Below are positions 12,423 through 52,585 of a stretch of 64,000 nt of DNA, in pieces. The notes under the pieces are model-generated. The model ran no database searches and was not told the origin of the DNA. It was given only the letters and a program-made list of their open reading frames with translations. This DNA comes from Clostridium sp. DSM 17811. GTDB lineage: Bacteria; Bacillota; Clostridia; Clostridiales; Clostridiaceae. Positions within the stretch are counted from its first letter, which is position 1; each line of letters starts with the position of its first letter. The translations under genes and the position numbers were made by a program. Where the stretch lies: positions 1 through 64,000 of the forward strand of contig NZ_JAHLDU010000008.1 in the NCBI RefSeq assembly GCF_018861905.1, read 5' to 3'.

Positions 12423-12427
12423 TCATC

Positions 12428-13727: not shown

Positions 13728-13763
13728 AAAAATTAATAATTAGTAGATAATTGATAAAAAAAT

Positions 13764-13816: not shown

Positions 13817-13872
13817 GAAAAAAAAAACTATCAACTTTATAATTAAGTTATAAGGTTTTAGGAAGGTGACAA

Positions 13873-15585
13873 ATGGATATAATTAGTGATTATTATAATG
13901 AAGTTATGAGCAACATTAATGAAGGTATTGTTGTTATAGATAAAAGAGGCATTATTCAAATAATTAATAATGCTGCTGAAAGAATGTTTGAAATTGATGC
14001 AGATAATAGCATAGGAGAATATATTTTAGATGTACTCTCCTCTAGCAAACTAATAAGTATAATTGAAAACAAAGAGGCCGAGGTAAACAAAAAAGAGGGC
14101 AAATTTATTGTAACTCGCAAATTAATAACTCAAAGTGGTGAGGTTATAGGTGCGTTTGAAGTTTTCCATGAAGAAAGTCAAAATAATCTATCAATGAACG
14201 TCCAAGATGATGGTAGAATACATGAAAAGATGTTAAACACAATTTTTAATACTGTAAATGAGTGCATAGTTGTAGTGGACCAGAATGGAATAATAACTAT
14301 GATGAGCGATGAATATAAAAGATTTATTAATTGCGAAAATCCAGAGGGAAAACATGTAACTGAGGTTATTGAGAATACAAAATTACATATAGTAGCAAGG
14401 ACTGGCGAAAAAAAAATTGGTGAAATTCAAGAAGCAAATGGGCATAGGATGATTTCTATGAGAGTACCTATAATAAAAGATGGTGAAGTTGTTGGTGCAA
14501 TTGGGAAAGTAATGTTTAAGGATTTGAGCAATTTTAAAATATTAAGTAATAAATTATGTCTTTTGGATAAGGAAGCTGAAGGCTGTAAAAGTGAATTAAG
14601 TACAGATCAAAAGGCAATATATACTTTTAATAATATTATAGGAGGCAGTGATAAAAGCCAAGAAGTAATGGGCCTTGCCAAAAGAGTTGCTAAGGTAGAT
14701 TCAAACGTTTTAATTACTGGAGAGAGTGGGACTGGTAAGGAACTTTTTGCACATTCTATCCATAATGATAGTAAAAGATGCTTAAAGCCTTTTGTAAAAA
14801 TTAATTGTGGAGCTATTCCGGCAGAACTTTTTGAGTCAGAAATGTTTGGTTATGAAGAAGGGGCTTTTACCGGTGCAAAAAAATCAGGTAGGAAAGGCAA
14901 GTTTGAATATGCAAATGGTGGTACCATATTACTAGATGAAATCGGTGATATGCCTATGAATATGCAAGTTAAACTTTTAAGGGTTATTCAAGAGAAGGAA
15001 CTCGTGAAGGTTGGTGGGAACGATGCTATTAAGGTTGATGTAAGAATTATAGCATCTACCAATAAATCTTTAGAACAGTTAATTAATGATGGAAAGTTTC
15101 GAGAGGACTTGTATTATAGGCTAGATGTTATGCATTTAAGATTACCGCCATTAAGGGAAAGAAGAGAAGACATTGAGGAATTGGCAAATAAGCTTTTAAT
15201 AAAAATATGTAAAAAATATAATGTCAAATCTGAAGGTATATCTAGGGAAGCTATTGATTTTTTAAAAGCTTATAGTTGGCCTGGGAACATAAGGCAACTT
15301 GAAAATGTAATAGAAAGAGCTATTAATTTGCTTGATGAGGATATATGCATAATGCCAAAGCATTTGCCGGAAAAAATAATTAAGAGTAAAATTAAGAAGT
15401 ACTCGCTCGAAAACAATTATTTGAAAGATGTTGTTGAAAGGATTGAAAAGGACATTATCATGGAATGTTTAAAAGATACCAGTGGAAATAAAAAAGAAGC
15501 AGCAAAAATATTGGGGCTTAGTAGGGCAGGATTATATAAAAAATTAAACCGATATAATTTAATAAAATCAACTAATCCACAATAG
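13873..15585 (+). CDS. Sigma-54-dependent activator with two PAS domains
   Basis: This transcription activator for sigma-54 RNA polymerase has 570 residues. Two N-terminal PAS-like sensor domains occupy about 1-105 (EGIVVIDKRGIIQIINNAAE) and 115-215 (ECIVVVDQNGIITMMSDEYK). A AAA+ domain follows at about 245-480 with Walker A GESGTGKE, the sigma-54 contact loop GAFTGA and Walker B LLDEIGD. A C-terminal Fis-type helix-turn-helix begins at KKEAAKILGLSRAGLYKKL. It lacks a response-regulator receiver, so it probably senses a small molecule or redox state through PAS. The next gene, thlA, has a sigma-54 promoter and a perfect palindrome upstream, making it the likely target. Confidence 0.93.
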   Translation: MDIISDYYNEVMSNINEGIVVIDKRGIIQIINNAAERMFEIDADNSIGEYILDVLSSSKLISIIENKEAEVNKKEGKFIVTRKLITQSGEVIGAFEVFHEESQNNLSMNVQDDGRIHEKMLNTIFNTVNECIVVVDQNGIITMMSDEYKRFINCENPEGKHVTEVIENTKLHIVARTGEKKIGEIQEANGHRMISMRVPIIKDGEVVGAIGKVMFKDLSNFKILSNKLCLLDKEAEGCKSELSTDQKAIYTFNNIIGGSDKSQEVMGLAKRVAKVDSNVLITGESGTGKELFAHSIHNDSKRCLKPFVKINCGAIPAELFESEMFGYEEGAFTGAKKSGRKGKFEYANGGTILLDEIGDMPMNMQVKLLRVIQEKELVKVGGNDAIKVDVRIIASTNKSLEQLINDGKFREDLYYRLDVMHLRLPPLRERREDIEELANKLLIKICKKYNVKSEGISREAIDFLKAYSWPGNIRQLENVIERAINLLDEDICIMPKHLPEKIIKSKIKKYSLENNYLKDVVERIEKDIIMECLKDTSGNKKEAAKILGLSRAGLYKKLNRYNLIKSTNPQ

Positions 15586-37701: not shown

Positions 37702-40152
37702 ATGGTAACTAAGTCATTGAAAGTAGAAGGAATGACCTGCGGGGCATGTGCAAAAGCAATTGAAAGAGTAACTAAAAAATTGCCAGGAATTTCTGAGTCA
37801 AGTGTAAATATTGCAACAGAAAAATTAAAGATAGTTTATGATGATTCTTTGATTAAATTATCTGATATACAAAATGTTGTTGATAAGGCGGGATATAAAT
37901 TATTAGTCCAGACGACTAATAAAACATTAAAACTTGAGGGAATGAGTTGTGCATCTTGTGCAAAAAATATAGAAAGAATAACTAGAAAACTCAATGGAGT
38001 TATAGAATCAAATGTAAATTATGCTACTGAAAAACTAACGATTTCTTTTGAGCCATCTTTAGTTAAAACTTCGGATATAAAGAAGGCTATAGCAAAAGGC
38101 GGATATAAGGCTCTTGAGGAAGAAAACAATGTAGATCTTGATAAAGAGAAAAAAGAAAAGGATATAAAGGCATTATGGAATAGATTTTTAATATCTGCTA
38201 TATTTGGAGTGCCGTTATTACTAGTTGCAATGGTACCAATGATTTTTATGAAAATGAATATGATGCTACCGAGTGTCATTGATCCTATGATGCATCTTAA
38301 AGCGTATGCTGCTCTACAATTAATACTTGTTATTCCCATAATGATAACAGGTAGAAGATATTTCATAGTGGGATTTAAGTCTTTAGCACGGTTAAGTCCT
38401 AATATGGATTCGCTAATATCCATGGGAGCATCAGCTGCATTTTTATATAGTATATTTGCAGTTTATGAAATATTCATTGGTAATACTGGTTATGAGATGT
38501 ATTTTGAATCGGCAGGTATAATATTAACTCTTATAACTTTAGGAAAGTATTTAGAATCAGTAACAAAAGGAAAAACATCCGAGGCAATTAAAAAGCTAAT
38601 GGGACTTCAACCAAAAACTGCAATTATAATTAGAATGGATAAAGAAGTTGAAATTCCAATTGATGAAGTAGAGGTTGGAGATATAGTTGTTGTAAAACCT
38701 GGAGAGAAAATGCCTGTGGATGGTGAAGTTGTTTATGGAACTACATCTGTAGATGAGTCAATGCTTACGGGGGAGAGTATGCCGGTCGAGAAAAGCATTG
38801 GACACAAAATAATTGGAGCAAGCATAAATAAAAATGGTTCTATTAAGTTTAAGGCAACTAAGGTTGGTAAAGATACGGCTCTTGCACAAATTATTACATT
38901 AGTTGAAAATGCTCAAGGATCAAAAGCACCAATAGCTAAAATGGCAGATATTATATCTGGCTATTTTGTTCCAGTGGTTATAGGACTTGCGTTAATATCG
39001 TCTTTATCTTGGCTAATAGCTGGTCAAACGGGAGTATTTTCACTAACAATATTTATTTCAGTGCTTGTAATTGCTTGTCCTTGTGCACTTGGACTTGCAA
39101 CACCAACGGCTATAATGGTTGGAACAGGAAAAGGCGCAGAATATGGGGTGCTTATAAAAAGTGGTACGGCCCTTGAAACAGCACATAAAATTCAAACTAT
39201 TGTATTCGATAAAACTGGAACTTTAACTGAGGGGAAACCAAAAGTAACAGATATAGTTACTGTAGCTGATGTTGATGAGGACTATTTGTTAGTAATAGCG
39301 GCTACTGCAGAAAAAGGTTCAGAACATCCACTTGGTGAAGCAATAGTAAAAGAAGCAGAGGAAAGAAAACTAGATTTCAAAAGGACAGAAAAATTTAATG
39401 CTGTGCCAGGTAGGGGAATAGATGTAACTATAGATGGTAAAAAAATATTACTTGGAAACAAAAAACTTATGGGTGAGAGCAATGTTTCTTTATTAGATTT
39501 AGAGAAAATATCGGATAAACTTGCAGGAGAAGGAAAGACACCTATGTTTATAGCTATTGAAGGTAAATTAAGTGGCATAATTGCAGTAGCAGACACAGTT
39601 AAAGAAAACAGTAAAAAGGCTATAGAAAGGCTTCATAGTATGGGAATACAGGTTGCGATGATAACTGGTGATAATAAAAGAACAGCAGAAGCAATCGCAA
39701 GGCAAGTTGGGATAGATACAATACTTGCTGAAGTATTACCAGAAGATAAGGCAAATGAAGTTAAAAAACTACAAGCAGAAGGAAAAAAGGTTGCTATGGT
39801 CGGTGATGGAATAAATGATGCACCAGCACTTGCACAAGCGGATATCGGTATTGCTATAGGATCTGGAACCGACGTTGCTATGGAGTCCGCAGATATAGTA
39901 CTTATGAGAAGTGATTTAATGGATGTACCTACAGCTATTCAGCTAAGTAAGAAAACTATAACAAATATCAAGCAAAATCTATTTTGGGCTTTTGGATATA
40001 ATATTCTAGGAATACCAGTTGCAATGGGGGTGCTACATTTATTTGGGGGTCCGCTTTTAAATCCAATTATCGCGGCGCTTGCAATGAGTTTTAGCTCAGT
40101 TTCAGTATTAACAAATGCATTACGCTTAAAAGGGTTTAAGCCACTAAGATAA
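37702..40152 (+). CDS. copA: Copper-exporting P1B-type ATPase
   Basis: This Cu(I) efflux pump has 816 residues. Two N-terminal HMA domains carry GMTCGACAKAIE (about 8-19) and GMSCASCAKNIE (about 80-91). Eight helices include the transport motif CPCALGLATPTAI. The phosphorylation site DKTGTLTEG, actuator TGESMPVEK, HPLGEA nucleotide loop and GDGINDAPAL hinge are all intact. The membrane Met/Asn/Ser residues of P1B-1 pumps are consistent (YNILGIPVAMG, MSFSSVSVLTNA). It is cotranscribed with csoR. GGAGGAG precedes ATG 37702. Confidence 0.96.
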   Translation: MVTKSLKVEGMTCGACAKAIERVTKKLPGISESSVNIATEKLKIVYDDSLIKLSDIQNVVDKAGYKLLVQTTNKTLKLEGMSCASCAKNIERITRKLNGVIESNVNYATEKLTISFEPSLVKTSDIKKAIAKGGYKALEEENNVDLDKEKKEKDIKALWNRFLISAIFGVPLLLVAMVPMIFMKMNMMLPSVIDPMMHLKAYAALQLILVIPIMITGRRYFIVGFKSLARLSPNMDSLISMGASAAFLYSIFAVYEIFIGNTGYEMYFESAGIILTLITLGKYLESVTKGKTSEAIKKLMGLQPKTAIIIRMDKEVEIPIDEVEVGDIVVVKPGEKMPVDGEVVYGTTSVDESMLTGESMPVEKSIGHKIIGASINKNGSIKFKATKVGKDTALAQIITLVENAQGSKAPIAKMADIISGYFVPVVIGLALISSLSWLIAGQTGVFSLTIFISVLVIACPCALGLATPTAIMVGTGKGAEYGVLIKSGTALETAHKIQTIVFDKTGTLTEGKPKVTDIVTVADVDEDYLLVIAATAEKGSEHPLGEAIVKEAEERKLDFKRTEKFNAVPGRGIDVTIDGKKILLGNKKLMGESNVSLLDLEKISDKLAGEGKTPMFIAIEGKLSGIIAVADTVKENSKKAIERLHSMGIQVAMITGDNKRTAEAIARQVGIDTILAEVLPEDKANEVKKLQAEGKKVAMVGDGINDAPALAQADIGIAIGSGTDVAMESADIVLMRSDLMDVPTAIQLSKKTITNIKQNLFWAFGYNILGIPVAMGVLHLFGGPLLNPIIAALAMSFSSVSVLTNALRLKGFKPLR

Positions 40153-40229: not shown

Positions 40230-41609
40230 TTATTTACAGCAAGGCATACCGCTAGATGGGGTTGGAATAGAAGAATCAGGTTTTGAGGTGTCAACAGTAT
40301 TTATATTATCAACAACTTTAATTACCCCACGAATCATACCCATTCCACAACTGAAGCTTATATCATTATCTTTTGGTGTGAATTCAAGTATATTATCGCC
40401 AGCTTGTAAATTCTTTTGAATGTTTAAGGAAGGTATAACAATTTGTCCATTGCAGGAATTTAATGATTTGCCATCAATTATCCATTTTACAGGCATATTC
40501 TTTTGTACGTATAGGCCATTTGGAGTATATCCATTATCATCTGCTGTCATTATTATTATTTGAACACCATTTTCAATTACAGGTTTATTGGACCGAGGCG
40601 ACAGTGATGATGCTATTTTATTATCAGATAAACTAGCGATCAAGGTAGTTGTGGTCGGTACGTTTATACCAGCGAGTGTTAGTCCGCGAGTCCCCATTAC
40701 AATACCCAAAACCACAACTAAAATACCACTGAATTTTAAAAGAGTTTTTGTATATCCTTTAGTAATCAAACCTGATAACGCTCCAAAGGTCAACATTAAA
40801 GGCACTGTGCCGAGAGAAAATAGTAGCATAGACATGGCACCATTAAATGTACTTCCAGTGCCTAGGGCATATAGTTGCATTGTTTGAAGTGGCCCACAGG
40901 GCATAAGTCCATTTAAAGCGCCGATTAAAAAGGGGGTTTTTGGTTTTTTCTTAATTGAACAAGCGGACCACGGCAATTTGAAGTTAAGTCTTCTAAATAA
41001 GCTAAAGCCACTCATATTAAGGCCCATTATTATCATAAACATACCTGCAAATATTTGAAGCCCAGCTTTTGCGGTTATGGATAGTGAAAGTACTGAACCT
41101 AGAGCACCAACTATCCCACCGATTATTGTATAGGATAGAACTCTTCCTGCATTGTATAGAAGGGCGGGTTTTACAGAATCAAATTTACTTTTGCTATCTT
41201 TAGTTATGCTTTGCGATAACATTATTCCACCACACATACCAACGCAATGTATTGAGGTAAGAACCCCAACAATGAATAGAACAAAATATGTAGCACCGTT
41301 TAGTTTAGATGTCATATCAAGTCCACTTGATGAATTGCCAATTAATACAATTGCCACTACGATTATAAATATGCCTGCTATTTTAGAGAGGCTTCCATCT
41401 TTTGTACTATAACCAGCTACATTTATAGCAGTTCTAATTTTTTCGAGATTGCAGAGATTAGTATCATATTCTACAGTTAGAGATTGACTACTGAAACTCG
41501 CCATAGCATTTTTAACACCAGTGAGTTTTGTAACTGCTCTTTCCACTCTTGATTGACAGGATGTACATGTCATGCCGAAGACTTTTATTTTTTCTTTTTT
41601 AACACCCAC
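40230..41609 (-). CDS. HMA / DsbD-like membrane / cupredoxin-like fusion protein
   Basis: This three-part membrane protein of 459 residues probably handles copper. An HMA domain (about 5-70) with GMTCTSCQSRVERAV binds soft metal. A six-helix sulfite-exporter/DsbD-like core (about 75-325) carries paired Cys motifs SIHCVGMCGGIML and LNGLMPCGPLQTMQLYALG. A C-terminal cupredoxin-like domain (about 345-440) has NSCNGQIVIPSLNI and FSCGMGMIRGVIKV as likely metal ligands, and the chain ends in MPCCK. This architecture is known from Firmicute copper loci. It converges on csoR-copA. Whether it exports copper, reduces it or loads cuproproteins is unknown. Confidence 0.85.
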   Translation of the reverse strand: MGVKKEKIKVFGMTCTSCQSRVERAVTKLTGVKNAMASFSSQSLTVEYDTNLCNLEKIRTAINVAGYSTKDGSLSKIAGIFIIVVAIVLIGNSSSGLDMTSKLNGATYFVLFIVGVLTSIHCVGMCGGIMLSQSITKDSKSKFDSVKPALLYNAGRVLSYTIIGGIVGALGSVLSLSITAKAGLQIFAGMFMIIMGLNMSGFSLFRRLNFKLPWSACSIKKKPKTPFLIGALNGLMPCGPLQTMQLYALGTGSTFNGAMSMLLFSLGTVPLMLTFGALSGLITKGYTKTLLKFSGILVVVLGIVMGTRGLTLAGINVPTTTTLIASLSDNKIASSLSPRSNKPVIENGVQIIIMTADDNGYTPNGLYVQKNMPVKWIIDGKSLNSCNGQIVIPSLNIQKNLQAGDNILEFTPKDNDISFSCGMGMIRGVIKVVDNINTVDTSKPDSSIPTPSSGMPCCK

Positions 41610-41815: not shown

Positions 41816-43225
41816 TTATTTATCTAGATTTAATGATGATTTAGGAAAGGTAAGAGTGAAAGTACTTCCCTCACCTAAAGTGCTGGTAACATCAATGCTA
41901 CCTATATGAGCCTCAACGATAGTTTTTACAATAGTTAGACCTATGCCGGCACCACCAGTGTTTTTATCACGAGATTCATCACTTCTGTAAAATCTTTCAA
42001 AGATGAAAGGTAGATCTTTATTAGAAATACCAATTCCATTGTCATGTACTTCTATGATGATGTTATCATTATCAGATTTTAGAGTTAATAAAACCTCCCC
42101 ATTTATTTTGGAATATTTAAGTGAATTTGAAAGTAGATTATACATTACTTGCTTTAGTTTATCTTTATCCATTAATACTTTAACATTTGGAATCAAATTT
42201 GAATAAATTTTTATACCGGTAGTTTCATATAGTGGTTCAAAACATGTAATTATTTTTTTTAGTTCTAAGGATAAGTTGAATTCTGATTTATTTAAATTTA
42301 GATTGGTCTGTTCTAATTTTGATATGTTGTTAAGGCCCTCAACTAATTTTATTAATCTTTGTATTTCTTCATAAAAGCCTGTGAGCATTTCTTCAGTGGG
42401 CTCCCAAACTTTGTCTAGCAATGCCTCTATATGTGATTTTAGATTGGTAAGGGGTGTCCTAAGTTCATGAGCCATATCAGAAGTTAAACGTTTCCGAAGA
42501 TACTCTTGTTTTTGTAGAGTTTCTGCTAAATAGTTTATAGAAATTGTCAAATCATTTATCTCTTTGGTTTTAGATGCACCATGATATCTTGCTTCTAAAT
42601 TTCCATTTCGCATTCTATTAGCTGTATCAGTTATTTCTGTTAAAGGTGATGATATTTGTTTTGAAAGAAAGATACTAATTATTAATGCAATGATCAAAGC
42701 TATGAAGATAGAAAGAAAAAAAGAATGATTTAAGGTTGTCTTGAAAGTTAGTGCACCTGCATTTAAAAAAGAGGTCCCATAATAACCAAAGACTATAGTT
42801 CCTAATTTTTTATTGTTTTTAACTAATGGGTAACTTTCTTCAGTATATTGACCTGGTTTAATTGAAGAAAAATTATTCATCATTGAGCCCATCATTGAAC
42901 CCATCATTGTTTTGGTTTGTAAATTTGAACTTCCCGATGTAAAAACAACAAGTCCGGTTGAGCTTTTCACTTCAATATACAAATCTTCTGCATTTGAATA
43001 TTTCAATATCTCATTTCTGTTAGTAGTTGAAAAGTCTGTTTTCTCATCGTATAGGCCATCTATTACAGTTGCAATTTTAGCTACTTTTGCTTTGTGTTCA
43101 GTAATTAGATAATTGCTGAATTTTTTACTAATCATATAATTTGAGATGAAACCTGCAATCAGTATAGATACAAATGCAGTGAGGAGAAAACCTAAGGACA
43201 ATTTTTTTGTTAAGGATATTTTCAT
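41816..43225 (-). CDS. Sensor histidine kinase with Met-rich extracellular loop
   Basis: This membrane sensor kinase of 469 residues pairs with the response regulator 44 bases upstream. Two helices (about 10-31 and 163-186) enclose an extracellular domain of about 130 residues. It contains MMGSMMGSMMNN, encoded by a tandem 12-bp repeat, a plausible Cu(I) site. HAMP (about 187-240), HisKA with SDMAHELRTPLTNL (His about 252) and a HATPase domain with DNGIGI and GGAGIGLTIVK are intact. ATG 43225 is preferred to an in-frame ATG at 43240, which lies in the GAGGTGG site. Neighbouring copper genes support copper sensing. Confidence 0.92.
   Translation of the reverse strand: MKISLTKKLSLGFLLTAFVSILIAGFISNYMISKKFSNYLITEHKAKVAKIATVIDGLYDEKTDFSTTNRNEILKYSNAEDLYIEVKSSTGLVVFTSGSSNLQTKTMMGSMMGSMMNNFSSIKPGQYTEESYPLVKNNKKLGTIVFGYYGTSFLNAGALTFKTTLNHSFFLSIFIALIIALIISIFLSKQISSPLTEITDTANRMRNGNLEARYHGASKTKEINDLTISINYLAETLQKQEYLRKRLTSDMAHELRTPLTNLKSHIEALLDKVWEPTEEMLTGFYEEIQRLIKLVEGLNNISKLEQTNLNLNKSEFNLSLELKKIITCFEPLYETTGIKIYSNLIPNVKVLMDKDKLKQVMYNLLSNSLKYSKINGEVLLTLKSDNDNIIIEVHDNGIGISNKDLPFIFERFYRSDESRDKNTGGAGIGLTIVKTIVEAHIGSIDVTSTLGEGSTFTLTFPKSSLNLDK
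42878..42907 (-). repeat. 12-bp tandem repeat coding a Met-rich loop
   Basis: On the minus strand, ATGATG-GGTTCA, ATGATG-GGCTCA, ATGATG encode M-M-G-S units inside the kinase sensor domain. Copy number could change in frame by slippage and so alter the number of thioether ligands. Confidence 0.8.
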
Positions 43226-43269
43226 ATAGAGCCACCTCATATATTTACTAATTTTTAGTTCTTCAGTAA

Positions 43270-44033: not shown

Positions 44034-44088
44034 TAAAAGAACTAGGATAGTACTCCTAGCTCTTTTAGGAGAATACTCCTAGTTCTTC
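44034..44088 (-). terminator. Terminator overlapping the SHOCT gene stop
   Basis: AGAACTAGGA and TCCTAGTTCT arms with nested CTAGGAGTA repeats form a compact multi-stem structure. On the minus strand it is followed by T4. It separates the SHOCT gene from the downstream regulator gene. Confidence 0.65.
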
Positions 44089-44327
44089 CTAGAAAGAATT
44101 GTTTTCTTTTTAGTGTATTCTTCTTCATTGATTTCCCCTTTAGCATATCTTTCATTTAATATATCTAAAGCCAAATTACTTGATGATAAAGATGAAGGCG
44201 AATTAACTTTCATTAATTTGAAAACTAGAAAAACAAATGCTAAAAATATCAAAAAACCAAAGCCCATCATTAAAAACATTCCCCCTCCAGTTCCATATCC
44301 AGATCCTAAAAATCTATTACAGTACAT
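44079..44327 (-). CDS. Small SHOCT-domain membrane protein
   Basis: This 82-residue protein has a Gly/Met-rich N-terminus (GSGYGTGGGMFLMMGFG), one membrane helix (about 18-40), a Ser-rich linker and a C-terminal SHOCT helix pair (ALDILNERYAKGEINEEEYT). SHOCT domains are short oligomerisation or interaction modules often found at the end of membrane proteins. GGAGG precedes ATG 44327. It lies between the quinone-type operon and the copper two-component genes on the same strand. The role is unknown; the Met-rich start fits copper-associated membrane proteins but proves nothing. Confidence 0.82.
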   Translation of the reverse strand: MYCNRFLGSGYGTGGGMFLMMGFGFLIFLAFVFLVFKLMKVNSPSSLSSSNLALDILNERYAKGEINEEEYTKKKTILSRKN

Positions 44328-44417: not shown

Positions 44418-45140
44418 TTAATAAATTGGTTTATTCAATGGCTTAATACCATAGTGTATTGAGGCTATACCGAAGGTTAGTGATTTGAATCCAGAACTTT
44501 CAAAACCAATTTGTTCAAATTCACATTGTAGTTGATCTTTTGTCATGAAGTCATTAACTGAATTTCTTAAATAGTAATAAGCTGCTTTATCATGGGTACC
44601 TAAGTATCCAACAAATGGTAATACAAAATTGAAATATAAATTATATATGGTTTTTAAAACTGGAATCTTGGGTTTAGATAATTCTAAGCAAACTACTTTT
44701 CCACCAGGTTTTAAAACTCTATACATTTCTGAAATAGCCTTTATTTTATCAGGTACATTTCGTAGACCAAATGCTATTGTAATAGTTTGAAAGATGTTAT
44801 CAGCAAAAGGTAGATCCATGACATCCCCCTGTATTAAGTCGAATTTATAATTGATTAGTGATTTGTTAAGCTTTTTATAACCTACATCAAGCATCGCTTT
44901 ATTAAAGTCTAGACCTATAACTATAGTATTTACGCCTACTGCTTTGCATTCAAGTTCTATCATTTTGCAAGTACCGCAGCATAAATCTAATACTTTATCA
45001 TTTTCTTTAATGGCGCATAGGTTTATAGCTTTTTTTCTCCAAAGTTTATCTATGTTTAAGGTCAAAAGCGTATTTAATTTATCATATTTGGGGGCAATTG
45101 ATGAAAATATATCATGTATATTTATGGCCACTCGTTTCAA
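44418..45140 (-). CDS. UbiE/MenG-type quinone C-methyltransferase
   Basis: This SAM-dependent methyltransferase has 240 residues. It shows FSSIAPKYDKLNTLLTLNID at the start, SAM motif VLDLCCGTCKM, GDVMDLPFAD, ITIAFGLRNVPDK, EMYRVLKPGGKVVCLELSKP and a C-terminal GIASIHYGIKP. These are the signatures of UbiE/MenG, which converts demethylmenaquinone to menaquinone. The start is TTG 45140, eight bases after AAGGAGG. It is the last gene of a tightly packed minus-strand run containing a UbiA prenyltransferase and a prenyl diphosphate synthase, so a quinone product is likely. Confidence 0.9.
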   Translation of the reverse strand: MKRVAINIHDIFSSIAPKYDKLNTLLTLNIDKLWRKKAINLCAIKENDKVLDLCCGTCKMIELECKAVGVNTIVIGLDFNKAMLDVGYKKLNKSLINYKFDLIQGDVMDLPFADNIFQTITIAFGLRNVPDKIKAISEMYRVLKPGGKVVCLELSKPKIPVLKTIYNLYFNFVLPFVGYLGTHDKAAYYYLRNSVNDFMTKDQLQCEFEQIGFESSGFKSLTFGIASIHYGIKPLNKPIY

Positions 45141-45153
45141 GATTTATACCTCC

Positions 45154-45774
45154 TTACATTAAGGGGAATATTACGAAAATTGTTAAGTCCCAAATTGCAT
45201 GGGATATAATTACTGGAAGTAAGCTTTTTTCTTTTTTATAAAGCCATCCCCAGAATACCCCACATACTAATGCTGCGATTACAAGCATCACATTGCCTGT
45301 AATTATGTGAACACCAGCATACAATAAAACCGAGATTACATATCCTTTGGTATCACCCATTTTTTGTGATAGAGTATTTTGTATAAATCCTCTCCAATAT
45401 ATTTCTTCTCCTGGACCAATTATGAATAAAAGCAGTAATCCTATCCAAATTAAGTTTCCATTAGACCTATTACTGTAAACGGATAATACCTGGGAATCTT
45501 TAAAAGGAAATATGAAACCTGATACAATATTTCCTAAATAGAATATTGTATAAAGTGCTATAGCTGAGAAAATTCCAATTAGAATATGCCTTATGGTCAA
45601 TTTACCAAGCTTAAAAATATCTTTGTTAAAAATGAATGCCATTAAAACTAATGCTGAAATTGACAGACTCATTTCTAACCAAAAATTCATTGGTTTTATT
45701 ACAAAAAGTAAATACCAAAGAATCATTGCTACAATTAATGTAAAGATAGTATATTTAGAATTTGTTTTGCTCAA
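45154..45774 (-). CDS. CPBP-family intramembrane metalloprotease
   Basis: This polytopic membrane protein of 206 residues has about seven helices. The CPBP (Abi) motifs are present: GPGEEIYWRGFIQN with the Glu-Glu and Arg (about 130-143), GVHIITGN and SHAIWDL near the end. Family members include Rce1-like prenyl-protein proteases and bacteriocin self-immunity proteins. Here it sits between UbiA and UbiE genes with gaps of 17 and 13 bases, so it belongs to that operon. It may process a membrane partner, but the substrate is unknown. The start is TTG 45774 behind AAGGAGG. Confidence 0.88.
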   Translation of the reverse strand: MSKTNSKYTIFTLIVAMILWYLLFVIKPMNFWLEMSLSISALVLMAFIFNKDIFKLGKLTIRHILIGIFSAIALYTIFYLGNIVSGFIFPFKDSQVLSVYSNRSNGNLIWIGLLLLFIIGPGEEIYWRGFIQNTLSQKMGDTKGYVISVLLYAGVHIITGNVMLVIAALVCGVFWGWLYKKEKSLLPVIISHAIWDLTIFVIFPLM

Positions 45775-45791
45775 GTCTTTTCCTCCTTTTA

Positions 45792-46691
45792 TTATAATAG
45801 GAAACTTAATAGTATAGAAAATATTAGTAAAATTCCAAACTGAGCTTGAAGTTTTCCTGTAGACTTATCAAGGGTTATTAATCCAGAAATCGAAATATCG
45901 GAATTATATAATGTTTTTGAATTTGAAAATGCTATAGGTAGTGTAATTAAACAAGGCAAACTAAGTAGTGGAAGGACTCCGAAGAAAATCATAATTATAA
46001 GGGATAAGTATGATAAAATAAGCATCCCATAATAAATTTTCTTTGCATTATTTTTGCCAACCAATATTGATAAAGTTTTTATGCCTGCTTTTTTGTCGTG
46101 AATTATATCGCGAATGTCATTCGCGTGTAATATAGCTGTAGTTAAAAGGCCTACTGGAATTGAAATCAGAATGACATCAGCACTAATGTCTTGCATTTGG
46201 ACATAATAAGAACCAATTACCATTAAAGGACCAAATAAAATAAATACTAGTGGAGCTCCAAGCCCCTTATATTTTAGCATCAGAGGTTTTCCTGTATAGG
46301 AATAGCCGCCCAGGGCACCTATAAGTCCCAATATTAATACAAATACACCCTTTTCATAGGATAAAAATAATCCTATAAGACTTCCAAGTATTAAGCAAAG
46401 CATTCCAGAGCGAAGAATCTGTTTGGAAGATAATAAATTCTCCAGAATAACACCGCTTGAACCATAAGAATCTTTTGTATCAACTTTATTTTCATAATCA
46501 TCATGATCGCTTAGTAAATTAACAGCAGTGTGTAATAACAAAATAGCAACAACAGAGAGTATAAAGTAACCAAATTGAAAATTATTTTGTTTAATTGCGA
46601 GTATTGCGCCTATTGTAACTGGAATTACAGAACCAGTGAAGGAAAAAGGTCTTATAGCTCTTAACCATGTTTTGATATTGCCACTAATCAT
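45792..46691 (-). CDS. UbiA-family prenyltransferase (MenA-like)
   Basis: This membrane prenyltransferase has 299 residues and about nine helices. The first Asp-rich motif reads NLLSDHDDYENKVD (about 63-76) and the second NDIRDIIHDKKAGIKTL (about 190-206), as in 1,4-dihydroxy-2-naphthoate polyprenyltransferase MenA. It would attach the chain made by the prenyl synthase of this operon to an aromatic head group. No genes for making dihydroxynaphthoate (menFDCEB or the futalosine route) are in the window, so the acceptor is inferred. AAAGGAGAG precedes ATG 46691. Confidence 0.88.
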   Translation of the reverse strand: MISGNIKTWLRAIRPFSFTGSVIPVTIGAILAIKQNNFQFGYFILSVVAILLLHTAVNLLSDHDDYENKVDTKDSYGSSGVILENLLSSKQILRSGMLCLILGSLIGLFLSYEKGVFVLILGLIGALGGYSYTGKPLMLKYKGLGAPLVFILFGPLMVIGSYYVQMQDISADVILISIPVGLLTTAILHANDIRDIIHDKKAGIKTLSILVGKNNAKKIYYGMLILSYLSLIIMIFFGVLPLLSLPCLITLPIAFSNSKTLYNSDISISGLITLDKSTGKLQAQFGILLIFSILLSFLL

Positions 46692-46719
46692 AGATACTCT
46701 CCTTTTACCATTTTAGTTG

Positions 46720-48075
46720 TTACATACGCATTGCCATTGGAATAGAAAATAATACAATGTTAGCTACTGCAAGTAATACCATTAGAATTGTATAAACTAT
46801 GGATGTTCCTAAAAGTGTTCTCTTATTTTGACTACTTTTCGCAATTCTGTAAGCAGTGTATATTGAACCTATTGTTCCAATTACAATAATAATATATTGA
46901 AGAACTTGTATAGTTGGGCTAGAAAGTAGTGCAGTTGAAGCTCCATGAGATGACATTCCGAATAGCTCCATTGCAGTATAAATCACAGATTTGCCCTCTG
47001 CTAATAAGTGAAATAGGTTATGAGCTATATGTCCTGCTAAGTCTAACGGTATAACAGCATATCCAAATCTTGCGAAATTTTCCATGACGGAAGCTTTGTT
47101 AAATTTTTTAGCAATAAGACCTGTTAAAAGGAGTAATACAACAGGAATTAACATAGCTATAAAAAAAGTTACAGTAAATGTTATATAATAGTTAGTTGTT
47201 CCTAGTATATTCTCAAGAGAATGTAATAATTGACCCCATATGTTTAGCATGGTTATGTTTTGAACAAAAACTATACCCATAATTACAATGGCTAAAAATG
47301 CAACTTCTATTTTGGGCTTCTTAATATTCCATAATTCTTTAGTAGGTGTGCGAGGGCTTATTCTAATAGAGTCGTTTGGACAATTTTTCACGCAGTTACC
47401 ACATAGGTTACATTCTGCACTACTATCCATGGTTTTGGGAAACTCAAACATAGGACAGCCTGGAACTTCACTTGTTCCTTTGTAACAGTTTGATGTTTTG
47501 CAGTTTTTACATACTTCTGGAGTCCCTCGTAGTTCAACCATACCAGCTCTTGAATAATTACCAGATAATCCACCAAGAAAACATAAGTATCTGCACCAAG
47601 TCCTTCTCTCAAAGAGTGCACCAGAAAATATTACTGCGGTAGTTATCATTAAAAGCAGTATTGCTGAGCCACGAGGGTTCTCAACTACACCCCAAACATG
47701 ATCGCTCCAGGTAATCATAAGAAAAGTTATATCAATAATCCAAATACCATATTTTCTTAGAAATTTTGGTACAGGTTTGTTATTGCCTACAAATTTCTGA
47801 ACTACATCATTTAGAAGCCCAAAAGGGCATACAATGCACCAAAATCTACCGAAAAGTAGTAGAAGGATAGGCAGTAGCGGCCACCATAATACCCAGGTTC
47901 CAGCAGTACCAAAGTTATCGTGAGCGTCGCTTGGACCAACTATTAATTCATAGACTATAAAGGCAAAAACTAGTGCAACTGGCCACTGAAATATACCGGG
48001 ATACCATTTGCTTTTGATAAATTTTTTTAAAGTTTTATTTTTTAAAAAATTTGTTTGTTTTTTTATATCTGACAT
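46720..48075 (-). CDS. Membrane polyferredoxin (NapH/NosR-like 4Fe-4S protein)
   Basis: This is a membrane electron-transfer protein of 451 residues. N-terminal helices carry Cys pairs GRFWCIVCPFGLLND (about 75-90) and WCRYLCFLGG (about 161-170), as in NapH/FixG-type proteins. Two [4Fe-4S] motifs follow: CKNCKTSNCYKG with a distal GCPMFEFP, and the classical CNLCGNCVKNCPND (about 217-230). The C-terminal half has five or six helices. Such proteins pass electrons between membrane quinols and soluble or extracytoplasmic carriers. Quinone-synthesis genes flank it in the same run. GGAGG precedes ATG 48075. The terminal acceptor is unknown. Confidence 0.87.
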   Translation of the reverse strand: MSDIKKQTNFLKNKTLKKFIKSKWYPGIFQWPVALVFAFIVYELIVGPSDAHDNFGTAGTWVLWWPLLPILLLLFGRFWCIVCPFGLLNDVVQKFVGNNKPVPKFLRKYGIWIIDITFLMITWSDHVWGVVENPRGSAILLLMITTAVIFSGALFERRTWCRYLCFLGGLSGNYSRAGMVELRGTPEVCKNCKTSNCYKGTSEVPGCPMFEFPKTMDSSAECNLCGNCVKNCPNDSIRISPRTPTKELWNIKKPKIEVAFLAIVIMGIVFVQNITMLNIWGQLLHSLENILGTTNYYITFTVTFFIAMLIPVVLLLLTGLIAKKFNKASVMENFARFGYAVIPLDLAGHIAHNLFHLLAEGKSVIYTAMELFGMSSHGASTALLSSPTIQVLQYIIIVIGTIGSIYTAYRIAKSSQNKRTLLGTSIVYTILMVLLAVANIVLFSIPMAMRM

Positions 48076-48094
48076 TAGTATCAGGCCTCCATTT

Positions 48095-48634
48095 CTATAA
48101 TTTAATAGATTTTTTCTTATTTATAGCAGCTATAACTAAAATTAGCACAACTACTCCTGCAAATACACCAAGTATAAGAAAGTTAGGGCCTGCACTTTGC
48201 ACATTAATACCAAGGTCAATGTTCTTTGCTTGTCCATTTGCATCAAAAGTAGATTTAATAATCCATTGACCCTTACTTTTGAAGTCTACCATTCCTGTAT
48301 ATTCGCCTTTTTTAGAACCTTCTTTTAAATCTATAATCATGGGTGTATTTTCCGCTGTCATGCCACTCATACCCTTCATATCAGTAGAGTTGTCCATAGC
48401 TACAGTGATTTTTAAATTAGCGTTGGTTAAAGGCTTCTCGTTTTTATCAAGTAAGGAGAATGCAAATTCATTCTTTCCTGGTTTCAATTTTTCATTTTTA
48501 AAGGTTAAGGAAGCTTTTACACCATCAACCACTTTATTTGTTTGGGTACCAGTTGTAGATGCAAATGCCAAGGGTGAAACTGATAAGACTAATATTAATG
48601 TAAATACAAAGTTTTTTAATGTTTTTAATTTCAT
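48095..48634 (-). CDS. Exported FixH/YtkA-like protein with C-terminal anchor
   Basis: This extracytoplasmic protein of 179 residues has a signal peptide (about 1-25, ending near LAFAST), one beta-sandwich domain of the YtkA/FixH type (LKPGKNEFAFSLLDKNEKPL, KGQWIIKSTFDANGQ), a C-terminal helix (about 152-172) and a basic tail. FixH-like domains occur with copper or heme enzyme assembly factors. A Met-rich loop (MDNSTDMKGMSGM) could bind copper. It is cotranscribed with the polyferredoxin (19 bases apart) and DoxX. AAAGGGG precedes ATG 48634. Confidence 0.8.
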   Translation of the reverse strand: MKLKTLKNFVFTLILVLSVSPLAFASTTGTQTNKVVDGVKASLTFKNEKLKPGKNEFAFSLLDKNEKPLTNANLKITVAMDNSTDMKGMSGMTAENTPMIIDLKEGSKKGEYTGMVDFKSKGQWIIKSTFDANGQAKNIDLGINVQSAGPNFLILGVFAGVVVLILVIAAINKKKSIKL

Positions 48635-48669
48635 GTTTATTGAGCCCCTTTCGTTTCGAAAAAATTATT

Positions 48670-49188
48670 TTATGATGAGATTAGATCAGAATTTGATTTT
48701 TTGGTAAAGACTTTTTTAATAATGGGTAATATAAAGTGGTCAAGGCCAATAGTATAGGCATTAGCTCCAACAAATAAGAGTATGAATGCTACTGTATACA
48801 TATTTGGATTTGTACTAGTAGTGCCAGCTAACATATAATTTAGGTTCATAAGTGCACCGGCGATAAGACCGACAACTGTAAGAGCACCTAGGATTAAGCT
48901 AATACCAACAAGAAGCTCACCAAATGCAACTAGATAACTAAATGTTACAGCATTTGGCAGTGCTATATTTTTTATAAAGTCCGCATACCATGACTGAACT
49001 GCTGGGTGAGCACCTGTTGCTTTAACTAACGCAGCTTTTAAAAATCCGGTTATACCAGCGCCAGCAGTGCTACCAATCCATCCACCACCAGTAACTTTTT
49101 CAAGGCCTGCAGAAATCCATTGGTAACCTAACCATATACGGAGTACTGTCCATACGATACTTAGGTATTTATTTTTAAGTAGTTTCAT
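48670..49188 (-). CDS. DoxX-family membrane protein
   Basis: This protein of 172 residues has four helices in the DoxX/TQO arrangement: RIWLGYQWISAGLEKVTGG near the start, FGELLVGISLILGALTVVGL in the middle and GLDHFILPIIKK near the end. DoxX is a subunit of archaeal thiosulfate:quinone oxidoreductase, and bacterial relatives are linked to membrane redox complexes. In this operon it precedes the FixH-like protein and polyferredoxin, so quinone or thiol redox chemistry fits. AAAGGAG precedes ATG 49188. Confidence 0.87.
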   Translation of the reverse strand: MKLLKNKYLSIVWTVLRIWLGYQWISAGLEKVTGGGWIGSTAGAGITGFLKAALVKATGAHPAVQSWYADFIKNIALPNAVTFSYLVAFGELLVGISLILGALTVVGLIAGALMNLNYMLAGTTSTNPNMYTVAFILLFVGANAYTIGLDHFILPIIKKVFTKKSNSDLISS

Positions 49189-49263
49189 TTTAAAATCTCC
49201 TTTAATTTATATTTAGAATATTAGTTAGAAAATTTAAAATTTTCATTATGAGTTTTTTCCTTT

Positions 49264-50076
49264 TTAGTGGGAAAGATTAAGAATATAGTTCACAAGATTT
49301 ATTAAACTTGTTTTATAGGTCGAGTTTTCAAATATATTAAGAGATGATATTGCTTTATCTCCATACAATTTAGCATCTTTTGCGGTAATATTTAGATTAG
49401 TATAAATATCTTTATCCATACAGTCATCCATTATTTGGTATGTCATTCCTAAATTTAATCCATATTCTTCTAACCCAATTATTTGTTCTTTTGTTGCGCC
49501 AGAGAGTGATGCTGCAATTTTGCAACTAACAGACATAAATAATGCTGTTTTGCCTTTAATAATATTCAAATAAATTTCACGAGTTGGTAACTCATTTTCT
49601 GCTTGAATCATTTCAGCGGTGCACATGTTTTCAGTCAATTCAATTATAATTTGCTCAAATTCTTTTGGTAGAGAATTCGCAAGAGTAGAAAATGCCAAAG
49701 AATAAACAACATCACCAGCCAGTACTGATATTTTATTACCATAAATTTTATTTAGAGTTTTTTGACCACGCCTTAGAGTGTCGTTATCAAGGACATCATC
49801 ATGTATTAAGCTAGCACTATGCATGAGTTCAAGGCCGGTAGCAAATTTAATTAACTGATTACGAGTATTTTGTGGTAGATTATTATCTATAAGACCTGAC
49901 GAGAGTAAAGCTAGGATAGGGCGAAGCCTTTTACCAGGAATTTTAAAAAAATAACCTATAATTTCTTTTAAATAATTTGTACTTAGATTTTTACAGATTT
50001 TTTTTAGTTCTTCTTCAACAAGAAGGAGATCATTACTTATTGGGCTATAAATATCATCAAACTGCAAATTTTTCAT
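49264..50076 (-). CDS. Polyprenyl diphosphate synthase (HepT/IspB-like)
   Basis: This isoprenyl chain-elongation enzyme has 270 residues. Both Asp-rich motifs are present: LIHDDVLDNDTLRRG (DDxxD, about 85-99) and YQIMDDCMDKD (about 213-223), with GKRLRPILALLSSG near the N-terminus. The length is short for the family (usually about 320), mainly at the C-terminus. Heptaprenyl synthases need a small partner subunit, and none is visible here. It is the first gene of the run leading to UbiA and UbiE, so it probably makes the menaquinone side chain. ATG 50076 is preferred to the adjoining GTG 50079. Confidence 0.88.
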   Translation of the reverse strand: MKNLQFDDIYSPISNDLLLVEEELKKICKNLSTNYLKEIIGYFFKIPGKRLRPILALLSSGLIDNNLPQNTRNQLIKFATGLELMHSASLIHDDVLDNDTLRRGQKTLNKIYGNKISVLAGDVVYSLAFSTLANSLPKEFEQIIIELTENMCTAEMIQAENELPTREIYLNIIKGKTALFMSVSCKIAASLSGATKEQIIGLEEYGLNLGMTYQIMDDCMDKDIYTNLNITAKDAKLYGDKAISSLNIFENSTYKTSLINLVNYILNLSH

Positions 50077-50218
50077 CACCTTCCTATATTTATTAATTTA
50101 TTGATATATTATTTTGAAGTGGCTGGTTTTTTAAAATTTTGTAAGTACAATACGTAGTATATAAGAAGGGTATGAAGATATTATGTAGAAGAGATGTTAA
50201 ATTGTTTTTTGCAAAGCA

Positions 50219-50311: not shown

Positions 50312-51679
50312 TTACAAAACTCGATTAAAATATAAAATAAACACGCTACCTTTTCCTTCTGTACTTTTTACTTCTATGTCTGCCTTGTGGAGGGTCAATA
50401 TGTTCCTTACAATTGTAAGGCCTATACCAGAGCCTTCTATTTCATGTCTACTTTTATCTCCTCGATAGAGTCTTTCAAATATATAAGGTAAGTCCTCTTC
50501 ATTAATGCCAATGCCTGTATCTTGAATTTTCAATATTATTTTTTTATTAGATTCTTTTAAAGTAATATTAATTTCTCCTTGATTTGGGGTAAATTTAACC
50601 GCGTTTGAAAGTAAATTAATAATTACTTGTTTTATTTTATCTGTGTCTCCCCAAATATCACATTGGTTATTGGTGCTACATTTTAATGTCATTGTGATAT
50701 TCTTACTTTCAGATATTAGTTCGAATTCCTTTTGGACTAAAGTGAGGATATCTTTTAAAGAGATTATTTCCATATTTAAGGCAGTTTCTTCTCCTTCAAT
50801 TTGTTTTAAGGTATTTAAATTGTCTATAAGCTTTCCAAATCTAATAACTTCATCGTTAAGATAGGTTAATCTTTCATTGTCTGCTGGAAAAATACCATCA
50901 ATCATAGCTTCAAAATTGTTTTGAAGAATATTAAGGGGAGTTCTTACTTCATGGGATATATCGGATATTAACCTTTTTCTAATAGCATCTTGATTTTGAA
51001 GGTTTTCTCCAAGTGTATTTATACTATTTCTTAAATTTTCAAACTCTAAAATGGTGCTTTTGTCATTCGACCGTGCGCGATAGTTCCCATTTGAGAGATC
51101 AACTGAAATTTTAGAAACTTGCCTAAGAGGATTAGAAAATTGCTTGGAAATAAGCAAGCTAATTAATATTGTTATCAAAAGTGAGAGTATAATACTTAAA
51201 ATAATACCCTTGTTTATTGATGTCTTGAAAGTGATATCATCACTGGTTAATAATACTGGACCATTTTGTCCTATGTCTACATACCCTACAATTTTATCTT
51301 TATACTTTATTTGGAGAGTTCTTAAAGTATATACTCCGTTACTTTTATGGGGCATAGTAGTATTAGTGTTGTTAATTATGTCATTTGCATTCATTCCCCA
51401 AACAACTTTTTTATTTATATCCTTAAGAGTGAGGCAGTAATTACTCATATAGGCTTCATGTGTAATTTCTATTCCAGAAGTCTTTGACCACTTGACATTC
51501 TTTTCGTACACTGTTTCTAAATATTTTACTATTCCAGTGTCCCTCTTAGTTTGTATTTCAACTAAATACTTGTTAAAAGTTTTTGAAATTGCTATATTTA
51601 CAAAAAGTGTAGCTAAAAAGAGTGCTAATACGGATGTACATACTAATATAATACTTAATCTTTTTCTTATGCTTTGCAT
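50312..51679 (-). CDS. Sensor histidine kinase
   Basis: This membrane sensor kinase of 455 residues pairs with the response regulator whose gene ends 3 bases upstream. Two helices (about 8-28 and 157-180) flank an extracellular domain of about 125 residues without an obvious ligand motif. HAMP (about 180-232), HisKA with SDISHEVRTPLNIL (His about 245) and the ATPase motifs DTGIGI and GSGIGLTIVRN are intact. The cytoplasmic half is clearly related to the Met-rich kinase at 41816-43225, but the Met repeat is absent, so the signal is probably different. The gene lies upstream of the quinone operon on the same strand. Confidence 0.92.
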   Translation of the reverse strand: MQSIRKRLSIILVCTSVLALFLATLFVNIAISKTFNKYLVEIQTKRDTGIVKYLETVYEKNVKWSKTSGIEITHEAYMSNYCLTLKDINKKVVWGMNANDIINNTNTTMPHKSNGVYTLRTLQIKYKDKIVGYVDIGQNGPVLLTSDDITFKTSINKGIILSIILSLLITILISLLISKQFSNPLRQVSKISVDLSNGNYRARSNDKSTILEFENLRNSINTLGENLQNQDAIRKRLISDISHEVRTPLNILQNNFEAMIDGIFPADNERLTYLNDEVIRFGKLIDNLNTLKQIEGEETALNMEIISLKDILTLVQKEFELISESKNITMTLKCSTNNQCDIWGDTDKIKQVIINLLSNAVKFTPNQGEINITLKESNKKIILKIQDTGIGINEEDLPYIFERLYRGDKSRHEIEGSGIGLTIVRNILTLHKADIEVKSTEGKGSVFILYFNRVL

Positions 51680-51682
51680 AAA

Positions 51683-52363
51683 TTAATCACCACCAAATTT
51701 ATAACCGATTCTAGTTACTGTTATTATATATTTAGGATTTCTGCTATCCAATTCTATCTTTTTACGTATATTTTTAATGTGTACATCTATTGTTCTATCA
51801 AAACCTTGAAAATCAATTCCCATAATTCTTTCAATGAGATGTTCTCTTGTAAATACTTTGCCACCGTTAGATGAAAGAATCTGTAATAGGTCGAATTCAT
51901 TTGGAGTAAGTGATATTTCTTCCCCTCGCACAAAAACTACTCTTTTGTCATAATTAATTTCTAAATCTCCATTGTCATAAACCATTGTTTCAGATTTATT
52001 TATATTAATCCTTCTAAATAAAGCATTTACTCTTGCGGTTAATTCTCTTGGACTAAACGGCTTAACCAAGTATTCGTCTGCCCCAAGGTTTAATCCTTCT
52101 ATCCTATCATCTAAGGTGCTTTTGGCAGTAAGCATAAATATATGTACCTCAGAAATTTTTCTTAAAATGCTGCAGACCTCTTCTCCAGATATGTCTGGTA
52201 ACATCAGGTCTAATATAACTAAATTAAATTCAATTTTCTCAAAAAGTTTTATTGCGTCTAAACCTTTTGTCGTGGTATGTACACTATAGCCTTCTTTTTC
52301 AAGATATGCTTTTAGTATTTCAGAGATCTTTTCCTCGTCTTCAATAATCAATATATTATTCAA
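51683..52363 (-). CDS. OmpR-family response regulator
   Basis: This response regulator has 227 residues. The receiver domain has IIEDEEK, the phospho-Asp in LVILDLMLPD, and Lys in EYLVKPF. The winged helix has FDRTIDVHIKNIRKKIELDS and RIGYKFGGD. The likely start is TTG 52363 (reading M-N-N-I-L-I-I-E-D), nine bases after AAGGAG. An in-frame ATG at 52432 would add 23 unrelated hydrophobic residues and has no ribosome site. It is the partner of the kinase 3 bases downstream. Its output domain is close to that of the regulator at 43270-43965. Confidence 0.92.
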   Translation of the reverse strand: MNNILIIEDEEKISEILKAYLEKEGYSVHTTTKGLDAIKLFEKIEFNLVILDLMLPDISGEEVCSILRKISEVHIFMLTAKSTLDDRIEGLNLGADEYLVKPFSPRELTARVNALFRRININKSETMVYDNGDLEINYDKRVVFVRGEEISLTPNEFDLLQILSSNGGKVFTREHLIERIMGIDFQGFDRTIDVHIKNIRKKIELDSRNPKYIITVTRIGYKFGGD

Positions 52364-52585
52364 GTTTATACACTCCTTGTATAATGTAGTTGTAATAGTT
52401 ACTAATGCTATAATAACTATTAATCTCATCAAGCTTAGTATTATAATTATCTTATTTATAATACATTAAACTCTTCAAGTCAATGAAATATGTTCGATAT
52501 AAACTATATTTTATAATTAAATGGGTAAACTATATAATGCACGCTATGTATATAGTGTAGTTTTATATATGAAGGGAGAATATTT

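Follow-up and report, generated by a model that had tools for sequence, protein, structure and literature searches.

A recurring clostridial gene module joining late menaquinone-type synthesis to a membrane polyferredoxin, with a possible link to metal reduction

The DNA analysed here as a whole (hereafter, the window) comprises 64,000 nucleotides, positions 1 to 64,000 of contig NZ_JAHLDU010000008.1 of Clostridium sp. DSM 17811 (assembly GCF_018861905.1), and harbors an operon of seven genes in which the late steps of menaquinone-type synthesis are combined with a membrane redox module. Since the gene set recurs in other species, chance adjacency is put aside: it is a recurring clostridial module of polyprenyl diphosphate synthase (PPS), DoxX, Met-rich YtkA-like protein, NapH-like membrane polyferredoxin (PFd), MenA, CPBP protein and UbiE. 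The best overall explanation, with a probability of roughly 0.55, is that the operon maintains its own quinone pool feeding metal reduction by PFd.

According to this explanation, the operon would build and use a small quinone pool, with PPS making the polyprenyl tail, the MenA-type enzyme attaching it to a dihydroxynaphthoate (DHNA)-type head group, and UbiE, where intact, methylating the prenylated product. PFd would then oxidise the quinol and deliver the electrons, via its iron-sulphur clusters, to a metal site outside the cytoplasm, which it would share with the Met-rich YtkA-like protein; the most likely substrate reduced there would be Cu(II), in the manner of CcoG-type cupric reductases. 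In some relatives, the quinol may be supplied by EtfABCX, in which NADH would reduce ferredoxin plus quinone.

An earlier sequence-only reading had proposed a seven-gene minus-strand operon with gaps of 13 to 75 bases, and this is confirmed by the coordinates, the family matches and the recurrence in other species. All seven open frames lie on the minus strand at 44418-50079, with successive gaps of 13, 17, 28, 19, 35 and 75 bases:

49264..50079, minus strand: PPS, the operon's first gene (PF00348, 1.6e-48; alternative ATG at 50076)
48670..49188, minus strand: DoxX-like membrane protein (PF07681, 1.8e-6; DoxD, 4.1e-6)
48095..48634, minus strand: YtkA-like protein, exported, membrane-anchored and Met-rich (PF13115, 3.3e-10; hydrophobic segments near both ends)
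46720..48075, minus strand: membrane polyferredoxin PFd (Fer4_5, 6.1e-10; ferredoxin-type cysteines; C-terminal membrane part with conserved H349, H352 and H356)
45792..46691, minus strand: MenA-type UbiA prenyltransferase of the module, called MenA_B below (PF01040, 7.9e-32; TIGR00751 over cut-off)
45154..45774, minus strand: CPBP (Rce1-like) membrane protein (PF02517, 1.6e-21)
44418..45140, minus strand: UbiE/MenG methyltransferase, possibly failing, with Cys58 replacing Gly in the S-adenosylmethionine (SAM) motif (NF001244 over cut-off)

The two quinone-type enzymes score above their family thresholds: MenA_B reaches 119.2 bits with TIGR00751 (menA; cut-off 102.15), without reaching the PRK06080 equivalog cut-offs, and UbiE reaches 256 bits with NF001244 (cut-off 216). 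No 4-hydroxybenzoate UbiA model was found among the family matches of MenA_B at 1e-3, and UBIAD1 is its only relative among PDB sequences at 0.01 (3.1e-34). PFd exceeds the cut-off for Fer4_5, is just below that for Fer4 and possesses cysteine sets for two predicted [4Fe-4S] clusters; its matches among PDB sequences are two ferredoxin-domain chains and nothing else. The third gene, earlier designated FixH/YtkA-like, retains the YtkA-like half of that name, whereas no curated FixH match was found for it; its product matches no PDB sequence at E 1. The Met-rich core of this protein is present in most relatives and weak in one locus of C. ljungdahlii (L034). Promoter and terminator scans remained at chance level.

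The survey of gene order across clostridia suggested by the sequence-only reading revealed the module in other species, with identities of 67-96% for PFd and 47-93% for MenA in the module loci fetched. The gene order of the relatives was derived from tblastn with the window proteins, and some gene ends are tblastn ends. The order seen in the window is kept in three relatives of the same genus, i.e., genome G003, the C13 cluster of C. frigoris (G007) and C. psychrophilum (G009), the latter two being cold-loving species. In G006, the same neighbourhood reads PPS, YtkA, PFd, UbiE, EtfB, EtfA, FixC, FixX, DoxX and YtkA, and after the second YtkA, the opposite strand carries MenA, MenI, MenC, MenE, MenB, MenH, MenD and MenF. 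Curated cut-offs are exceeded by MenC, MenE, MenH, the isochorismate synthase, MenD and MenB of this set; the assignment of EtfA, EtfB, FixC, FixX, MenA and MenI is by best match, below equivalog cut-offs. FixC and EtfB of G006 are clear relatives of subunits of the Thermotoga maritima EtfABCX structure 7KOE (FixC against EtfC, 7.1e-120), and EtfA and FixX were recognized by best NCBIfam match. The T. maritima complex contains bound menaquinone, as described in a passage of PMC10734219.

The distribution of the key genes was surveyed in 206 genomes (46 genera) of the family at cut-offs of 1e-100 for PFd and FixC and 1e-60 for MenA_B, with the best eight candidates per genome scored for PFd and FixC. 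PFd was found in 26/206 genomes (6/46 genera), and a genome-specific oddity was put aside on this ground. A class-wide PFd search at 1e-20 had the window genome alone among 391, with 18 other family genomes among those listed; for counting PFd, the family search was preferred. The module MenA_B occurs in 21 of the 206 genomes (5/46 genera), 20 of which are PFd-positive. FixC, the quinone reductase of EtfABCX, is limited to 11 genomes (3/46 genera), all of them PFd-positive (hypergeometric probability 1.4e-11, kinship ignored), and in 9/11 the coordinates place FixC and PFd on one contig within ~23 kb. C. ljungdahlii ERI-2 (G542) and C. magnum DSM 2767 (G512) each carry two PFd, two MenA_B and two FixC genes, with FixC within ~20 kb of the module. 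The spread of PFd and the tie of the module to EtfABCX and, in some relatives, to adjacent men genes are additions to the sequence-only reading, whose interpretation as a whole is partly supported.

A single scan of the GTDB collection with the PFd alignment yielded 119 relatives. The 80 best were retained, and their loci are of unequal length, some being truncated at contig ends. PPS lies near PFd in 19 of these loci, among them every one of the 17 records titled Clostridium. These 19 loci also contain MenA_B (16), CPBP (17), DoxX (16) and UbiE (18, counting the C. frigoris C13 remnant and two copies cut by contig ends). At the same time, PPS, MenA_B, CPBP and DoxX were found in none of the other 61 loci, and CPBP mostly accompanies MenA_B. 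Two small proteins without a Pfam match were seen in addition: a Met/Cys-containing membrane protein of ~95 aa (L037:6478-6765 and six other loci), encoded ahead of UbiE or PPS where the map was inspected, and a ~102-aa protein in five loci (e.g., L037:11512-11823 and L034:11386-11694), encoded just after PFd in both maps inspected.

The claim that the late menaquinone steps are present without the genes making the head group holds for the markers searched, i.e., MenD, MenB and MqnA/D, in the window genome (G000; 5.19 Mb, listed completeness 100%, contamination 2.68%). MenD and MenB were not found over cut-off (best 69 bits versus 244 and 158 bits versus 343, respectively; MenF, MenC, MenE and MenH lay outside the genome-wide search). 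A profile search for MqnA/D gave zero matches (MqnB/C outside the genome-wide search), and the futalosine route was put aside in this genome for that reason. Since the markers of either known route are missing from the window genome, the head group would most likely be taken from outside; that a DHNA-type head group is scavenged or otherwise supplied is rather likely in our estimate.

Across the 17 genomes of the genus, MenD was over cut-off in two, G006 and C. frigoris. The module group also numbers 17 genomes, i.e., five of the genus and 12 reached through the PFd loci, with C. psychrophilum and C. frigoris each counted once. MenB and MenD were over cut-off in the same 4/17 of them (G006, C. 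frigoris, Clostridium sp. LS and OS1-26), and the remaining 13 had neither, nor a convincing MqnA/D. These 13 include C. ljungdahlii ERI-2, C. magnum, C. muellerianum, C. folliculivorans, C. zeae, C. aminobutyricum, the window genome and three metagenome-assembled genomes (MAGs; L038, L039 and L094), which may be incomplete. Among the 13, an MqnA/D match was marginally over cut-off in C. algifaecis (23.9 bits, or 26.7 with neighbours and only thus over the 26-bit cut-off) and below it in the L094 MAG (21.4 bits). The C. algifaecis match and that of OS1-26 (33.4 bits, over cut-off, 137/252 positions) were judged not real, since a full-length match in that search reaches at least 195 bits; OS1-26 has MenD and MenB anyway.

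A supply of the head group from outside would resemble that in DHNA-dependent Lactiplantibacillus plantarum, which likewise possesses genes for DHNA prenylation and methylation without those making DHNA; the relevant passages of PMC10746273 report MK-6/MK-7 (menaquinones) with DHNA supplied and no quinone detected without it, and Group B Streptococcus is cited there for quinone cross-feeding. Unlike in lactic acid bacteria, where such dependence is described, scavenging in Clostridium is what we infer, and the genes form one operon with the polyferredoxin, DoxX, the Met-rich YtkA-like protein and CPBP. Another difference is that EtfABCX is adjacent in some Clostridium relatives and that cytochrome bd was absent from all 17 module genomes searched (other terminal reductases were outside the search); cytochrome bd as the quinol sink was put aside on this count.

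Evidence on the nature of the product comes from the PFd places where MenA_B is missing. The coordinates reveal MenA_B within ~7 kb at 23 of the 31 PFd places in the family; the eight without it are G006, the second C. frigoris cluster, one cluster of sp. LS, OS1-26, G465, G545, G556 and G557. In five of the eight (G006, OS1-26, G465, G556 and G557), men genes are present in the fetched stretch, in two (C. frigoris and sp. LS) MenD is found elsewhere in the genome, and in G545, where MenD was untested, a men-type MenA stands beside EtfABCX. From this swap, it would seem that the two MenA types share one function and that a prenylated quinone is required by the module. Two further MenA observations were made: loci L042 and L043 (~13726) of C. 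folliculivorans and C. zeae combine MenA_B with a men-type MenA in a single cluster, with no MenD or MenB over cut-off, and a genus mate without a close PFd relative has a MenA-like frame of 31% identity (1e-29; G001:C21:27995-28747, L122).

The same genes are open to a different interpretation, namely that the product of MenA_B with CPBP is another quinone, formed endogenously with a head group from an unrecognised pathway and without any import. Its basis is that 13/17 module genomes, acetogens included, lack the markers of the known routes, that MenA_B is just 28% identical to the men-operon MenA of G006, and that CPBP, with its unknown role, keeps company mostly with MenA_B. Furthermore, a 2013 modelling paper on C. 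ljungdahlii grown in ATCC medium 1754 mentions, in the section concerned, a preliminary liquid chromatography-mass spectrometry hint of a "menaquinone-like derivative" (PMC4222884). At the same time, MenA_B scores as MenA and not as a 4-hydroxybenzoate enzyme, the men-type MenA substitutes for it beside the same partner genes, suggesting the same substrate class, and no ring-making genes were noticed when the 60 most widespread neighbour clusters were looked through by eye. The medium in question presumably contains yeast extract, and scavenging was then possible in the 2013 culture as well. We regard both this interpretation and, more generally, an unknown endogenous route to the head group as unlikely.

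The module also concerns clostridia considered to be quinone-free. In the review by Rosenbaum and Mueller (2021), C. ljungdahlii, C. autoethanogenum, C. coskatii and C. magnum appear as quinone-negative, for which reason the function of their Fix-like complex "cannot be as described" (PMC8578096); C. ljungdahlii and C. magnum are the two of these species examined here. The table of the same paper shows no Fix for Clostridium sp. P21, yet FixC was found here in G513 (C. muellerianum P21). The module may explain the Fix complexes in such organisms. No account of this operon was seen among the literature results listed, in which few subscription journals were represented. It is doubtful, though conceivable, that in species such as C. 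ljungdahlii and C. magnum a MenA_B quinone with an unrecognised endogenous head group would serve a cytochrome-free mini-respiratory chain, in which EtfABCX would bifurcate electrons from NADH to ferredoxin and quinone and PFd would discharge the quinol onto an extracytoplasmic metal. If the module works, these acetogens would possess a quinone in the membrane and a further way of reducing ferredoxin, a point of relevance to energy conservation, electrosynthesis and metal tolerance.

That the module depends on a quinone of some kind is probable in our view. The genomes carrying PFd outside the module group support such a link, since 19/20 of those searched possess MenD (3) or MqnA/D (16) over cut-off, the exception being an Anaerolineales MAG. 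The opposite assumption, i.e., that UbiA and UbiE act on a non-quinone substrate such as a polyprenylated lipid or a natural product, would account for the known head-group markers not being found in most carriers tested. It is set against the presence of men genes beside the module in five relatives and the restriction of FixC, a member of a quinone reductase family, to PFd-positive genomes of the family sample (11/11), and appears very improbable.

Selection on the module was estimated from ratios of nonsynonymous to synonymous substitutions (dN/dS). In the four window-type clusters (six pairs), they amounted to 0.11-0.29 for MenA, 0.10-0.15 for CPBP, 0.11-0.25 for DoxX and 0.27-0.44 for YtkA; with G006 added, they were 0.07-0.11 for PFd and 0.14-0.26 for PPS (six intact-copy pairs). 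The rows with the C. frigoris C13 PPS were excluded, its in-frame stop having upset the codon pairing, and the control rows (HK3) with C. frigoris, flagged for stops, were not used. Purifying selection acts on MenA, CPBP, PFd, DoxX and PPS, in contrast to the loss of UbiE, of which differing remnants are left in G003, the C13 cluster of C. frigoris and C. psychrophilum. In the window itself, position 58 of the SAM motif is Cys in place of the Gly found in 15/15 aligned module relatives (frames shorter than 191 aa and six non-module loci were excluded from this comparison). The TTG start of the window UbiE is weak evidence, since the window CPBP starts with TTG too. In the second C. frigoris cluster, the frames of both PPS and UbiE are open. 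Most simply, methylation would be dispensable in the window's clade, or decay would have begun. Inasmuch as UbiE looks compromised in the window genome, "menaquinone" may be the wrong name for the end product.

Loss of UbiE with MenA kept would yield demethylmenaquinone, the carrier of extracellular electron transfer in Listeria monocytogenes according to a passage of PMC10746273, and one might suppose that the module of the window's clade similarly serves external acceptors. No FMN-binding protein or ApbE was found among the ten operon and flanking proteins scanned (genes of extracellular electron transfer were not searched genome-wide). The Listeria-type flavin locus has an FMN-binding lipoprotein, ApbE, Ndh2 and EetAB beside the demethylmenaquinone genes. 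We consider this explanation quite improbable.

As regards the electron acceptor, the properties of PFd and of its usual partner may point to a metal. Across 77 PFd sequences, conservation was seen for the ferredoxin cysteines, H126 and H349/H352/H356, and 44/44 members scanned weakly match NapH models. An adjacent upstream frame within 100 bases was found in 68 of the 79 PFd loci analysed, and in 61/68 it has hydrophobic segments at both ends. Met/His-rich stretches (at least five in 40 residues) occur in 66/68 of these upstream frames versus 178/716 control frames, or 54/68 versus 108/716 at a threshold of at least six, many of the PFd loci being closely related. The membrane redox module with a possible copper link proposed earlier is thus supported by the Met-rich YtkA core, the Met/His-rich upstream frames and the metal-gene neighbours. 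Tentatively, and a little short of even odds, we take a metal, copper in the first place, to be the acceptor of PFd, judging from these sequence features.

A close known setting is that of CcoG/FixG (ccoGHIS). PFd is likewise a membrane protein with Fer4_5-type and ferredoxin-type cysteines encoded next to an exported YtkA-like protein, with a copper ATPase not far away in the window; unlike CcoG/FixG, it has no match to that family, bears a C-terminal membrane part with conserved histidines and is accompanied by quinone genes of its own. CcoG reduces Cu(II) via two [4Fe-4S] clusters, with an electron donor described as unknown, and its YccM-type homologues have no Ig-like tail, as stated in the relevant parts of PMC7558416. 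Thus, the missing tail alone would not exclude PFd from CcoG. If it works, the module suggests an electron donor for CcoG-like metal reductases. Compared with the NapH ferredoxin subunit of quinol dehydrogenase, the window PFd is longer and has the extra C-terminal membrane part.

An alternative raised by the neighbours in certain lineages is iron uptake or extracellular iron reduction, in which PFd would work together with FTR1 or P19-type systems and not as a copper reductase. FTR1-like frames are located near PFd in L032, L033 and L038 (one member tested, PF03239, 2.8e-53), and the DUF2318 and FtsX/MacB-like genes following PFd in Desulfosporosinus locus L101 resemble a part of the Campylobacter P19 iron cluster (as depicted in PMC6083913). 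Known systems of this kind are P19/FTR1 of Campylobacter and FtrABCD, for whose FtrD no usable detail on electron transfer was found in PMC11966278. FTR1, DUF2318 or ABC (ATP-binding cassette) genes do occur at some PFd loci; none of them is present in the window operon, near which CopA and a copper protein with HMA and DsbD domains are found, and the Met/His-rich partner of PFd is a better fit to copper. Iron as the general substrate of the module is accordingly seen as an unlikely alternative to copper. Viewed for itself, the L101 cluster (11479-15354) consists of PFd, a DUF2318 (FtrD-like) gene, an ABC ATPase and two FtsX/MacB-like permeases, the last three judged by eye; similar clusters recur in other Desulfosporosinus loci, possibly a metal system related to the P19 cluster. 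Also by eye, a SigI/RsgI-like sigma-anti-sigma pair was noticed at PFd loci of Desulforamulus and Desulfosporosinus (L055, L056, L057, L067, L089, L091 and L092).

A number of findings weigh against a quinone pool feeding metal reduction by PFd. On the side of the polyferredoxin, the window protein scores 36.7 bits with NapH, far below the curated cut-off of 213.05, no CcoG/FixG family is among its Pfam/NCBIfam matches at 1e-3, a quarter of the control frames also reach the lower Met/His threshold, and in some lineages iron is indicated by the FTR1, FtrD-like and ABC genes nearby. The copper link is contextual because a CopA relative lies near just 3/19 module loci (and 11/61 other PFd loci). 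On the side of quinone supply, EtfA, EtfB, FixC and FixX are found together in relatives, whereas the window genome, unlike the carriers of EtfABCX/FixABCX, has no FixC at 1e-100 (best eight of 29 candidates scored); it is one of 15 PFd genomes without FixC at this cut-off, and FixC has internal stops in two of its 11 genomes (G514 and G546). No DHNA importer was identified. The MenA swap is not strict either: C. frigoris and sp. LS carry MenA_B plus MenD, and in C. folliculivorans and C. zeae a men-type MenA adjoins MenA_B. In the window MenA, the first Asp-rich motif has Ser, as in 5/17 aligned MenA_B, most of which have Asn. Finally, the loss of UbiE, the in-frame stop in the C. frigoris C13 PPS and a remnant in G539 could mean decay of the whole system in some lineages. 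That remnant (L175, 8554-11187) comprises MenA_B with an in-frame stop and a partial FixC, with no PFd within 20 kb, and looks as if the module decayed together; the stretch also matches CPBP, UbiE and FixX at full or near full length.

The surroundings of the operon in the window include the following genes, which are not counted as its members:

44079..44327, minus strand: SHOCT small membrane protein adjoining the operon (PF09851)
50312..52432, minus strand: two-component pair upstream of the operon, sensor kinase HK2 at 50312-51679 and regulator RR2 at 51683-52432 (HisKA/HATPase in HK2; synteny in G003, G006 and G007)
40230..41609, minus strand: HMA-DsbD-cupredoxin copper protein (PF13386 and PF00403; Cupredoxin_1 below cut-off)
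37702..40152, plus strand: CopA copper P-type ATPase (NCBIfam TIGR01511, copper-transporting ATPase subfamily, over cut-off)

The last two are the copper genes that had been reported nearby, and they are indeed present; relatives or fragments of the HMA-DsbD-cupredoxin protein were found near 4/19 module loci. PADLOC gave no match for the CPBP and SHOCT proteins. The SHOCT gene adjoins the UbiE remnant in C. frigoris and HK2 in G006, and the HK2/RR2 pair is a possible regulator of the module. Another sensor kinase, HK1 (41816-43240), carries a Met-rich stretch, MMGSMMGSMMNN, between hydrophobic segments, as one might expect for a copper or metal sensor. Far from the operon, at 6339-6731, a short frame resembles, as judged by eye, a fragment of an insertion sequence (IS) transposase.

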